Origin: a virus
Length of the DNA stretch: 50,338 bases
Direction: 5' to 3' (one strand)
IMG/VR virus record: IMGVR_UViG_2162886015_000003
Coordinates: 1-50,338 of that record
In this document: positions 32,785 through 36,216 of the stretch, in pieces
How the letters are laid out: every line of letters starts with the position of its first letter
How positions within the stretch are numbered: position 1 is the stretch's first letter
Made by a program: the position numbers and the translations under genes
The notes under the pieces: generated by a model
Databases searched by the model: none
Told to the model about the DNA's origin: nothing
The model's input: only the letters and a program-made list of their open reading frames with translations

Positions 32785-33098
32785 GCTTCAGTCTCCCTCA
32801 CATCCCATTCAAGATCTCCGCTCGCGAGGAACGGTGCCAGTGTCTTTCTGTTGTGATTCACTACTACTTCTACCGGGTATGTTCCGTCCGGGTTCCATAG
32901 GTCCATCAGCTTCTGGTTGCGATATTTTTCCGGCAACTCCACGTCTGCGCGGATGTAGGTCGCACCCTTTATGCCGTGTGCAACATTTGATTCAGGGCCT
33001 TTTATCCGCACGACAAGGCATTCGAAGATTTCGTATTTCTCTTTCCAGCGGTTGCCGATCAGGATGGATGGCAGCCGCAGCCTTACAAGCAGTCTCAA
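32781..33098 (-). CDS. Hypothetical protein, TTG start
   Basis: A 105-residue protein of unknown function with a basic N-terminus. The preferred start is TTG at 33098: it overlaps the phosphatase stop (TTGA) and follows GGGAGGGCGC. A GTG four codons upstream is possible but would put the ribosome site inside the gene. Confidence 0.6.
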   Translation of the reverse strand: MRLLVRLRLPSILIGNRWKEKYEIFECLVVRIKGPESNVAHGIKGATYIRADVELPEKYRNQKLMDLWNPDGTYPVEVVVNHNRKTLAPFLASGDLEWDVRETEA

Positions 33099-33829
33099 GC
33101 GCCCTCCCACTCGATCTTCTGCGGCATCGGCGGAATGGTTTGGAGCGTCGCCAGATCGATAAATGTGAAGTGCCCATCGCGCAACCAGCCGCCGGTATCG
33201 ATGTGATAGACGTTGCCAAGGACAGCCGGGCGCTTGAGCGGGGTATGGCCGACTATCACGGCGCGCACGTCGTCGACACCTGATTTGTCTTCTGACTGGA
33301 TTCGCTCACGAGACCACATGGCCGCATCGATCGCCGTGCACAGCCCGTTTCGCGTCACAGCGGGATCGGTAAGCGCAAAGATGAAATCCGACCAGCTTGC
33401 GAACGGGCAATCGGCATGCACGATGCCAACTGGACCTGCCTCGGTCTCAACCTCGATCGCGACGGGGAGCACACCGAATGCGTCGCTAAACTGGCGCTGC
33501 ACGTCCGGCGTGTTGGCGACATTCCAGCCGCCACCGTTTGCCGCGTAGTTGCCTGCATCCATGTTGCCATTGGGCCAGCGGATGCACATGTCTTCGTGGT
33601 TACCCTGCACGGCGCGAAACCACGGCTCAGCAAGCCACTTGAGCGCCTGCTCCGACTCGGGACCGCGGTCTACCAGGTCGCCCACTGAAAACAGGCGATC
33701 CTTGCCGCTTTCGAATCCAATATGATTGAGCGCGGTATAGAGTCTCGTGAAATGGCCGTGAATGTCGCCCACCGCGAAGTCGCGGCCGATGGTATTGCGG
33801 GCAAACCGATGAACGTATTGGGTATTCAA
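33095..33829 (-). CDS. PP2A-like serine/threonine phosphatase (lambda NinI-like)
   Basis: A 244-residue metallophosphatase. The metal-binding motifs are all present: GDIHGH (residues 21-26), GDLVDRG, GNHED, a His in VHADCPF and the late VIVGHTP. It resembles lambda protein phosphatase (NinI). Its target in infection is not known; it may change host phosphorylation or second-messenger signalling. The TTG start at 33829 follows GGAGGCCGC; the longer upstream frame overlaps the Acb2-like gene and is not protein-like. Confidence 0.88.
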   Translation of the reverse strand: MNTQYVHRFARNTIGRDFAVGDIHGHFTRLYTALNHIGFESGKDRLFSVGDLVDRGPESEQALKWLAEPWFRAVQGNHEDMCIRWPNGNMDAGNYAANGGGWNVANTPDVQRQFSDAFGVLPVAIEVETEAGPVGIVHADCPFASWSDFIFALTDPAVTRNGLCTAIDAAMWSRERIQSEDKSGVDDVRAVIVGHTPLKRPAVLGNVYHIDTGGWLRDGHFTFIDLATLQTIPPMPQKIEWEGA

Positions 33830-33845
33830 GCGGCCTCCGGGCTCG

Positions 33846-34154
33846 TCAGTAGGTCGTCGGCTGCGCAACGGCACGCGTGAGCGCCATATAGCCCTGCTGC
33901 AGATGGTCATCGGCGAGGCAAATCCAACGCCACGGCCCTGCATCGTGCCCCGCATAGATAGCGGAACCCTCGACCAGTTCACCGGGTTCACCGACCGGAC
34001 ATTCGATCAGCGGAAGCACTGGCGTGACGACTTCACGCACCGCCTCGACGAGCGCGCGCGTTTCTTCGGCATGCGCCTTGATGCGGTTCATGAGGTCAAT
34101 CTCAGCTTGCGACAGATCGCGATAGACCTTGATTTGCTTGTGTTGGTTGTCCAT
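33846..34154 (-). CDS. acb2: Acb2-like anti-CBASS cyclic-nucleotide sponge
   Basis: A 102-residue protein. The N-terminal YRDLSQAEIDLMNRIKAHAE hairpin and the C-terminal LQQGYMALTRAVAQPTTY are hallmarks, as I remember them, of the Acb2/Tad1 hairpin family. Acb2 proteins assemble into hexamers that bind cGAMP and related cyclic nucleotides and so block CBASS immunity. Residues Tyr11 and Lys26, reported as important for binding in Acb2, fall at the same numbers here. The central part is longer than usual and carries ECPVGEPGELV. A GGAG ribosome site precedes the ATG. Confidence 0.78.
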   Translation of the reverse strand: MDNQHKQIKVYRDLSQAEIDLMNRIKAHAEETRALVEAVREVVTPVLPLIECPVGEPGELVEGSAIYAGHDAGPWRWICLADDHLQQGYMALTRAVAQPTTY

Positions 34155-34160
34155 GCTTCA

Positions 34161-34604
34161 TTACTCCGGTTGGTTGAGTTGAATTCCCATCTTTCTCGCG
34201 CGCCGCGGCAACCAGCGCTCAAACCCTGCATCGAACCGCGCGAACTTCTCCTCGCGCGGTGCCGACCCCTGATCCAGCCATTGGTGGCACAACATGCAGC
34301 CGGGCAGTGTGCGGGCGTGATTCGCTTTCAGGCCCATACCCTTCCCTGCGCTAAGCCGGTTGTCGTGACACGGCACAACCGTTGGATCCGCCCAATCTGA
34401 CCGGGCACACTTCACATTCAGGTAGCACGGCTCGCCACGGCAAGCCGCCAGATACTTCGCCCCTTCTGCAACCGTTACGCGCTTCTTTCGCGTCTTGAGT
34501 GCCTTCGCGCGCAGCACTGTTTTGGTAGCAAAAGAGGTTTTGAAAGCTTTGGATGGTTCGGGCTTTTTGAAGCTGGTTCTTTTTAAGGGTGTGGAGCGCT
34601 TCAT
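34161..34604 (-). CDS. YbcO-like nuclease (DUF1364)
   Basis: A 147-residue protein. The first 45 residues are Lys-rich and probably disordered; the rest is a DUF1364/YbcO-like His-Me nuclease fold: LAACRGEPCYLNV, NHARTLPGCMLCHQWLDQG with paired Cys and His. YbcO proteins are lambda NinG-region nucleases of recombination type. It overlaps the methyltransferase stop (ATGA). Confidence 0.82.
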   Translation of the reverse strand: MKRSTPLKRTSFKKPEPSKAFKTSFATKTVLRAKALKTRKKRVTVAEGAKYLAACRGEPCYLNVKCARSDWADPTVVPCHDNRLSAGKGMGLKANHARTLPGCMLCHQWLDQGSAPREEKFARFDAGFERWLPRRARKMGIQLNQPE

Positions 34605-35860
34605 GTTGCGAGCTCCGCTATGGCTTCTTCGGTTGCACAGATGAATTCGGCCGCTTGATGCGGGTTTATTGCATTTCCGTATCCGCGCAGGGCTCCAACT
34701 CGATAGGCCTTTGCTCGCTTGAGGCTTGCGGCATCAAGGCCTGCCATTTCAGCCAGTCGGCGCTGTTCGGCGCTGAGCTTGCCCATTCCGGCGGGTAACC
34801 CATCAACCAGCGGGAATGCTCCGGGTTCAACTGGCCGCCACTTTTCATCCCGGCAGAAGAGCCAATCAGCAACTCGCCAGAAGCCGTTCGTCGGGCCGGC
34901 TGCATCGGGTGCGGCTGCGCTTGCTCGATCGCAGACAGACCCATTCCGTTGCCCGTCTTGCCCGCATATTTCTCCTTCAGAGCTGCCCGCCGCGCTTCCT
35001 TGGCCTCGACGTTCCCTTCGTTCGTGTGCGCTGTCGGCGTCGCCCAGCTCGCCAGAGCCGCTATTTGATTCAAGGGCTTGCCCGTATCCCACGGTCGGGC
35101 ATCCATCGCCCCGCGGCGCATGTCCGATACCGTCGGCGTCGGCCAATGCGCAAACTGCGCCACATGGTTCAGACTCACTGCCACCTTCCGACCATCTGGC
35201 GTCTTGCCGGTCGGACTCAGCCCCTCGAATGACTGCGAGCCCATCGCGTTGCCGACCGTAGGTGTTGGCCAACCGGCCAGCCAAACTGCTCGACCGAGAA
35301 GCGCGTTCACCTCGACGTTGCGACACTCCGCGCCGTCCTTGTGATCGCGCGTAGTCGGCGTCGGCCACGAAGTAAGCGCGGTCTCTGATGTGCGGCGCAC
35401 CGACGCTCGCAGACGGAAAAGGATCCGCCCCGCAGGCGTAACCAGCGGCTTCCAGGTCAGTGAAAACAAGGTCGAGCCAAGGTTCGACGTCCTTGCTCGC
35501 AACCTGCTCTCCAAAGATTTTTGAAGGTCGGCGCTGCGTGATGAGCCAGTCCCACAGGGGCCAAAGGTGCCGCTCGTCAGCAAACCCAAGTCCCGCGCCT
35601 GCCGAGGAGAAAGGTTGGCAAGGACAGGAACCGCTCCAAACAGGTCGGTCATCAGGCCATCCGGCGAGTCGAAACGCGAGCGGCCATCCACCGATGCCAG
35701 CGAAGAAATGGCACTGGGTGTATCCGCGAAGGTCGTCTGGTCGAACATCCTCTATGCTCCGTTCATCTACGTCGCCGGCGGCGATATGGCCCGCTGCTAT
35801 CAGGTTGCGCAGCCACTGGGCGGCGTATGGGTCGATCTCGTTGTAATAAGCGCCACTCAT
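34601..35860 (-). CDS. C5-cytosine DNA methyltransferase
   Basis: A 419-residue DNA (cytosine-5) methyltransferase. Motif I is HFFAGIGGW (51-59), the catalytic PCQPFS is at 80-85 (Cys81), GEQV at 117-120 replaces ENV, RDRAYF at 159-164 is motif VIII, and motif X ([13 protein letters not shown]) is near the C-terminus. The variable region between is long, Gly/Arg/Ala-rich and holds repeated LADADG-like units. No restriction enzyme is next to it, so it probably protects phage DNA or alters host methylation. The ATG at 35860 overlaps the upstream stop. A second long frame runs inside it. Confidence 0.9.
34666..35748 (-). CDS. Overlapping-frame protein within the methyltransferase gene
   Basis: A 360-residue frame on the same strand, wholly inside the C5-methyltransferase gene. 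It looks protein-like: [20 protein letters not shown] at the start, [23 protein letters not shown], four units of W-P/A-T-P-T, and [20 protein letters not shown] near the end. I recall such proteins from many phages, often labelled as methyltransferases. The WPTPT units are the same DNA as LADADG units of the main frame. Whether it is translated cannot be settled here. Confidence 0.55.
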
Positions 35861-36216
35861 CGCGCCACCTTCCGCGCAATCTTCTGGCATCGCGGGCACT
35901 GCCACACCAGGTGCGATCCAGCCCAGAATGATGTTGATGTAGCGTCAGGAGCGGTATGGCCGAATAAGCGGCAAATTAGGCGCTTTATCAATCCCACTTT
36001 GATCCAGTGGGTATAAAAGCCGCGCACCCATGAAAGCGCGTAGAGGAAGCACAGCGCAAAGATTCCGTACTGACCGGCCTTCCACGTCGCCCAGAACCAG
36101 AACGGCTGTGATGCGATGCCAAACAGGCACGCGTAGCGCCGAACCGATTCGCGTTTGTCCTGCGACAGAAACACGGCAGTGACGCCACAAAGGCCGATTG
36201 CGATTTGGTCGATCAT
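35857..36216 (-). CDS. Small membrane protein with C-terminal zinc-ribbon-like tail
   Basis: A 119-residue protein with two or three hydrophobic segments (about residues 1-20, 26-45 and 48-65; QPFWFWATWKAGQYGIFALC) and a soluble tail RLFGHTAPD...WQCPRC with a Cys pair. The membrane half alone is a common small phage protein; the tail may be a separate domain fused on. An AGGAG site lies before the ATG. Function unknown. Confidence 0.68.
   Translation of the reverse strand: MIDQIAIGLCGVTAVFLSQDKRESVRRYACLFGIASQPFWFWATWKAGQYGIFALCFLYALSWVRGFYTHWIKVGLIKRLICRLFGHTAPDATSTSFWAGSHLVWQCPRCQKIARKVAR

Follow-up and report, generated by a model that had tools for sequence, protein, structure and literature searches.

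Can one stretch of phage DNA encode two conserved proteins on the same strand over more than a thousand bases? The question is raised by a C5-cytosine methyltransferase gene (MT) in the window analyzed here, a phage record of 50,338 bases that also carries terminase, portal, tape-measure and replication genes. The initial annotation had pointed to a second open frame of 360 codons inside this gene, which looked like a real conserved protein, and had allowed that one of the two frames might instead be a widespread annotation artefact. For DNA phages, there are few documented cases of long overlaps in which selection on both frames can be demonstrated. We report herein that about 1.1 kb of this gene is dual coding, with both frames protein-coding and conserved, a conclusion that we hold to be practically certain, and that the nested frame probably supplies a part of the enzyme that the first frame lacks.

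The locus and its two reading frames

The features of the locus are collected in Table 1. The full MT ORF spans 34601-35905 on the minus strand, with an upstream GTG at 35905, and its start is probably the ATG at 35860. The nested ORF is contained entirely within it, its codons beginning at MT codon position 2. As the initial annotation had it, the DNA of the repeated LADADG-like units of the methyltransferase encodes WPTPT units in the other frame; LADAD (CTGGCCGACGCCGAC) becomes WPTPT when read one base on. At the other end of MT, the ATG of the HNH endonuclease gene overlaps the MT stop (ATGA). A NinI-like phosphatase gene is found at window 33095-33991 (minus strand), near the HNH endonuclease and the methyltransferase.

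Table 1. Positions of the features of the methyltransferase locus in the window
Feature	Position	Strand	Remarks
C5-cytosine methyltransferase catalytic chain (MT)	34601..35860	-	419 aa from ATG; PF00145, phrog_363
Nested ORF (WPTPT protein)	34666..35748	-	360 aa, ATG start, frame +1 of MT; phrog_1008, phrog_31772
GGAG Shine-Dalgarno of nested ORF	35757..35760	-	from MT Arg-Ser codons, 8 nt ahead of ATG 35746-35748
MT catalytic cysteine codon (motif IV, PCQ)	35618..35620	-	PCQ context conserved in homologue alignment
LADADG/WPTPT middle	34886..35365	-	MT: disordered linker, neutral; nested frame: cassette array under constraint
WPTP cassette 1	35272..35367	-	cassette type with 22 members in sample
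WPTP cassette 2	35146..35271	-	cassette type with 7 members, seen at array positions 1 and 2
WPTP cassette 3	35047..35145	-	WATPT unit comes next
Motif-IX-like segment of nested ORF	34777..34839	-	hhalign; invariant residues
HNH endonuclease, next gene	34161..34604	-	phrog_131 E 5e-26

The MT chain matches PF00145 (E 1.6e-10) and phrog_363 (E 3e-81), and motifs I, IV (PCQ), VI, VIII and X, together with the fold, identify it as a C5-methyltransferase. Judged by conserved residues in the homologue alignment, motifs I-VIII and X are present and motif IX is absent. The AF2 model is confident for residues 1-170 and for the C-terminal helix, with Foldseek matches to M.HhaI and M.HaeIII, while pLDDT is below 50 across most of residues 175-355. 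By alignment and AF2, the MT chain has neither motif IX nor a folded recognition domain, and residues 175-355 are disordered and, by the substitution test given below, neutral.

Two queries supplied the homologous loci: the MT protein by itself (L002-L081 and L156-L281, plus L282-L361 from prophages of bacterial genomes) and the nested protein (L082-L149). A homologous and long +1 frame was present in 80/80 loci retrieved with the MT protein alone, and a homologous +1 ORF in 358 of the 360 loci with an MT ORF, the two exceptions being truncated. The expectation by chance was estimated by permuting synonymous MT codons and counting +1 stops over the core in 287 distinct homologues, whose G+C content ranged from 51 to 72%. 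The +1 frame was free of stops in 97% of these, versus 6.5% expected, with a mean of 0.03 stops per sequence observed against 2.8 under permutation; the +2 frame was never open. For the window gene itself, the +1 frame stays open in only 2.5% of permutation trials; this gene scores one +1 stop in the openness test because the first few codons of the tested core precede the nested ORF. A frame left open by chance or by high G+C is ruled out by these figures, and close homologues have essentially none of the second-frame stops that would have spoken against a real protein.

The translation start of the nested ORF is likewise conserved. An ATG occupies the aligned start in 228/287 homologues, and 178 of these 228 carry a Shine-Dalgarno-like tetramer. 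Upstream of the start, MT reads E-R-S-I-x-D-V, and three of these residues use codons that are biased at this site across the homologues: Arg is AGG in 43% (7% elsewhere), Ser is AGC or AGT in 80% (45% elsewhere), and Asp is GAT, which supplies the ATG, in 90% (38% elsewhere). The biased Arg, Ser and Asp codons jointly spell (A/C)GGAG, 8 nt ahead of the ATG. Codon choice in MT thus creates the Shine-Dalgarno sequence and the ATG of the nested ORF.

Selection along the overlap

Substitutions were scored per MT codon position in 122 independent close homologue pairs of 70-96% nucleotide identity. The ends that belong to MT only evolve as do ordinary single-frame genes, with rates at positions 1/2/3 of 0.055/0.042/0.258 in the 5' part and 0.091/0.067/0.238 in the 3' tail. 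The overlap over motifs I-VIII gave 0.073/0.039/0.161 and the C-terminal overlap 0.075/0.029/0.097; where motifs I-VIII and X are overlapped, both frames are constrained. In the LADADG/WPTPT middle, the rates were 0.238/0.068/0.049, so that constraint there is confined to the +1 frame, and the MT frame is neutral yet without stops. Permutation of the nested frame predicted 2.16 MT-frame stops in the middle against 0 observed, although this openness is partly ascertained because the MT ORFs had been chosen as open, and the MT frame is in fact broken at one locus (L132).

A four-class substitution test similar to OLGenie, in which distant and close pairs agreed, gave nested-frame dNN/dNS ratios of 0.57 in the N-terminal part, 0.15 in the middle and 0.34 in the C-terminal part; the flanking controls gave 1.03 and 0.83. 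For MT, dNN/dSN was 0.19 in the N overlap, 1.20 (CI 1.05-1.37) in the middle and 0.23 in the C overlap; dSN/dSS in the 3' control, with 14 SS sites only, was left unused. The same pattern is visible between the window and a single relative of 93% identity (L082), where 160 middle codons differ at positions 1/2/3 in 27/2/2 cases, amounting to 27 amino-acid changes in MT and 3 in the nested frame.

The codon-position rates, the four-class test and this pairwise comparison together establish that both frames are real, and that LADADG is a by-product of WPTPT and not the reverse. For the middle, the real protein is that of the WPTPT frame, and LADADG is there a neutral linker of MT. Hence, the proposed same-strand dual coding over 1.1 kb is strongly supported by openness and by selection in both frames, whereas the suspicion that one frame is an artefact holds for neither, only the annotation of the pair being inconsistent and misleading. 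Purifying selection in a single frame, which the initial annotation had named as a possible refutation, is found in the middle, for WPTPT, but the N- and C-terminal parts are constrained in both frames; the LADADG-like units are indeed present in MT, albeit as a neutral by-product.

A candidate recognition subunit

The nested chain consists of an N-terminal region, WPTP cassettes and a LNPxHSRWLMGxPxEW segment, in that order. Searches of Pfam, NCBIfam and the PDB sequences gave no match to it. AF2 modeled it poorly (pLDDT 63), with confidence only at a helix (70-88) and a hairpin (95-117), and Foldseek found no significant fold match for it. In the motif-IX-like segment, residues L307, W314, L315, P319 and W322 are invariant in the alignment of homologues. 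The TRD region holds serial exchangeable modules: of the 35 cassette types with at least 5 members, 29 are found at two or more places in the array, and one is present in the MT frame as well as in +1.

A bridge to conventional enzymes is provided by the actinophage relatives (L365, L368-L425). There, LPTP cassettes begin in the +1 frame, the +1 stop adjoins the first in-frame LPTP, and the later cassettes, LNPxFxEWMM and motif X all lie in the MT frame. The codon-position rates change with the frame, from 0.174/0.080/0.087 to 0.077/0.058/0.219. In part of this set (L365, L368-L392) the +1 stop at the frame switch is gTAG, also TAA or TGA, and the Val there is nearly always GTA; this may reflect no more than clean termination, or some programmed event. 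By hhalign, the nested family matches the in-frame actinophage part at Prob 95 and E 4.3e-8, and its motif-IX-like segment matches the in-frame segment of actinophages at Prob 95.6 and E 1.1e-8. The in-frame actinophage part in turn aligns with canonical motifs IX-X at E 1.4e-4. Compared directly, the nested C-terminus and canonical motif IX give a weak match, with an E of 1.6e-3 and a Prob of 16. The nested chain is therefore a homologue of the part of actinophage methyltransferases that carries cassettes and motif IX in frame, and there is moderate support, leaning on this bridge, for a motif IX on the second chain. Moreover, the +1 frame is closed in four C5-methyltransferases with an in-frame motif IX, and phage-type methyltransferases of Firmicutes without one have a long +1 ORF with LTWK..LPTP..MMGFPKGWTD.

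The reading that we favor, with a probability of roughly 0.78, is a split C5-methyltransferase in which the gene of the catalytic subunit also encodes, in overprint, a recognition/motif-IX subunit; judging from the sequence comparisons, that role for the nested chain is itself quite probable. Frame 0 would yield a catalytic chain with motifs I-VIII and X, and frame +1, from its own Shine-Dalgarno sequence and ATG within the first gene, a second chain in which the N-terminal part is followed by an array of some 3-4 WPTP cassettes and then by the motif-IX-like end. The two chains would associate, the cassettes would recognize DNA targets, possibly several each, methylation would need both chains, and the purpose may be protection of phage DNA. 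Since the cassettes overlie a stretch that the catalytic chain appears to need only as an open disordered linker, they would be free to change or be exchanged.

Split enzymes of this kind have precedents. M.EcoHK31I is a C5-methyltransferase with motifs I-VIII and X on its large chain and motif IX on a separate small chain, its TRD being predicted on the large chain (PMC3404938). The MT chain here resembles that large chain in having motifs I-VIII and X and lacking IX, and differs in that no TRD is found on it. The second chain here is longer (about 250-400 aa), with a cassette array over a neutral linker, and occurs in hundreds of phages, and no restriction enzyme partner was seen. The second gene here is nested in an alternative frame, and so, reportedly, was the one for the small chain of M.EcoHK31I within the large gene in the work of Lee et al. 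from 1995. M.EaeI is another two-polypeptide C5-methyltransferase of the same type. The likeness to M.EcoHK31I is drawn at the level of motifs and gene arrangement. The multispecific C5-methyltransferases of the Bacillus phages SPR, SPbeta, phi3T and H2 carry exchangeable modules of about 30-40 aa in their target-recognition region. Such an array in the target-recognition region of a phage C5-methyltransferase is what we find here, except that the Bacillus-phage modules are in frame in a single chain and the WPTP cassettes are in a second frame and chain. M.AquI is also split, into a catalytic chain (alpha) and a motif-IX chain (beta) (PMC3404938). The beta chain of M.AquI, however, has motifs IX and X and a distal variable region, whereas here the large chain retains motif X and the overlap of the genes is nearly complete. 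Relaxed specificity is on record for m5C methyltransferases of Paracoccus prophages (PMC3925955), which would lend functional support should those enzymes belong to this family.

The nested protein might instead be a separate phage protein, for example DNA-binding, anti-restriction or regulatory, that merely shares the DNA and is not a methyltransferase subunit. Its lack of a solved or curated homologue and its weak fold model are compatible with this, and so are the actinophage +1 cassettes, which stop without a motif IX, a fact that the simple subunit model leaves unexplained. Nonetheless, we consider a separate protein unlikely: the cassette and motif-IX homology to the actinophage in-frame part falls exactly at the TRD-IX position, MT is without the cassette and motif-IX parts, and the nested homologue was never seen apart from MT, either among the 68 loci retrieved by means of the nested protein or among 80 loci of a second lineage.

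Programmed frameshifts could in principle join the MT N-part, the WPTPT middle and the MT C-part into one polypeptide, and the order of the constrained frames along the gene (MT, nested, MT) and the change of frame inside the actinophage gene both resemble such a hybrid. It is nevertheless improbable, as the nested frame is constrained beyond the middle too and has its own Shine-Dalgarno sequence and ATG, the MT frame is held stop-free across the middle, and inspection of the actinophage switch by eye revealed no slippery sequence. Less credible again is that MT alone is real and that the +1 ORF merely reflects high G+C and the conserved motifs of MT. LTWK, RTS..WPTP and LNP..WLMG do lie opposite conserved MT motifs, so that nested conservation is partly forced, and the PHROG and GenBank names of the nested ORF resemble annotation spill-over; but the +1 frame is open far beyond expectation, its ratios lie far under those of the non-overlapping controls, its start codon and Shine-Dalgarno sequence show bias, and its constraint exceeds what MT imposes, tightly held as it is in a middle where MT is unconstrained. 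The converse, with WPTPT alone real and the MT frame its shadow, has the restriction of constraint to WPTPT in the middle third in its favor and is the least tenable of all, since MT has all catalytic C5-methyltransferase motifs and an M.HhaI-like fold, its exclusive flanks are normally constrained, its dNN/dSN is low in the N and C overlaps, and its frame lacks stops throughout the middle, where some would be expected.

Distribution and annotation of the overlapping pair

The split-enzyme reading would extend to many phages. The nested ORF matches 217 phage records, and in the second methyltransferase lineage (L366, L426-L504) the same +1 relation was found in 79/80 loci, with an overlap of at least 600 nt in 78; in the middle of that lineage, too, constraint is mainly in the nested frame. 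E. coli prophages with a relationship to epsilon15 are present in 68 of 5,426 complete genomes, where the annotation under the match is 'DNA cytosine methyltransferase'. On balance we lean slightly toward a very widespread and so far unrecognized class of phage C5-methyltransferases, in which the DNA of a neutral linker in the catalytic subunit also encodes, in a second frame, the recognition cassettes. Phages could thus exchange specificity modules and leave the catalytic chain untouched, and in actinophages the same cassettes would have moved between frames. A literature search for the overlap, for 'WPTPT' and for 'Mte8', with most subscription papers outside its coverage, found no description.

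The annotation of the locus is inconsistent and widely misleading, usually showing one frame of the two, and neither frame is an artefact. MT is annotated in epsilon15 and BcepC6B, and both frames are in K1ind2 and PhiXhv-5; the nested frame is annotated in JY39 and, as a CDS called 'methyltransferase' or 'hypothetical', in R6L, Cy-LDV1 and phiKX1. PHROGs 1008 and 31772 include the nested protein under the name 'DNA methyltransferase', though the nested chain has no catalytic motif, and 'DNA methyltransferase' or 'hypothetical' are also the names of nested proteins in L153, L154, L155 and L366. In some public records, the true MT ORF is fragmented or without annotation.

An overlap of this length, in hundreds of genomes and with internal controls that reveal which frame counts where, accounts for the low-complexity LADADG middle, without a recognition domain, of a common phage methyltransferase, and for an uncharacterized WPTPT family that the databases name 'DNA methyltransferase'. 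Cloning, codon-optimizing or annotating the MT frame alone may therefore lose half of the enzyme, and overprinted specificity modules become directly testable in ordinary E. coli.

Several loci depart from the usual arrangement. One (L132:563-1730) has an in-frame stop in MT directly after HLWPT, with the nested frame open for 303 codons. In four others, the nested ORF is without its usual stop and continues in frame into the next gene, which is nuclease-like in L137:1979-4310, L140:1784-4112 and L143:1967-4334 and like a phage DNA-modification gene in L141:1961-3443; this run-on could be a fusion or chance, since an internal ATG comes after it. Finally, L078 and L073 have two MT ORFs in tandem; in L078 there is a nested ORF in each of the two, pointing to a duplicated module.
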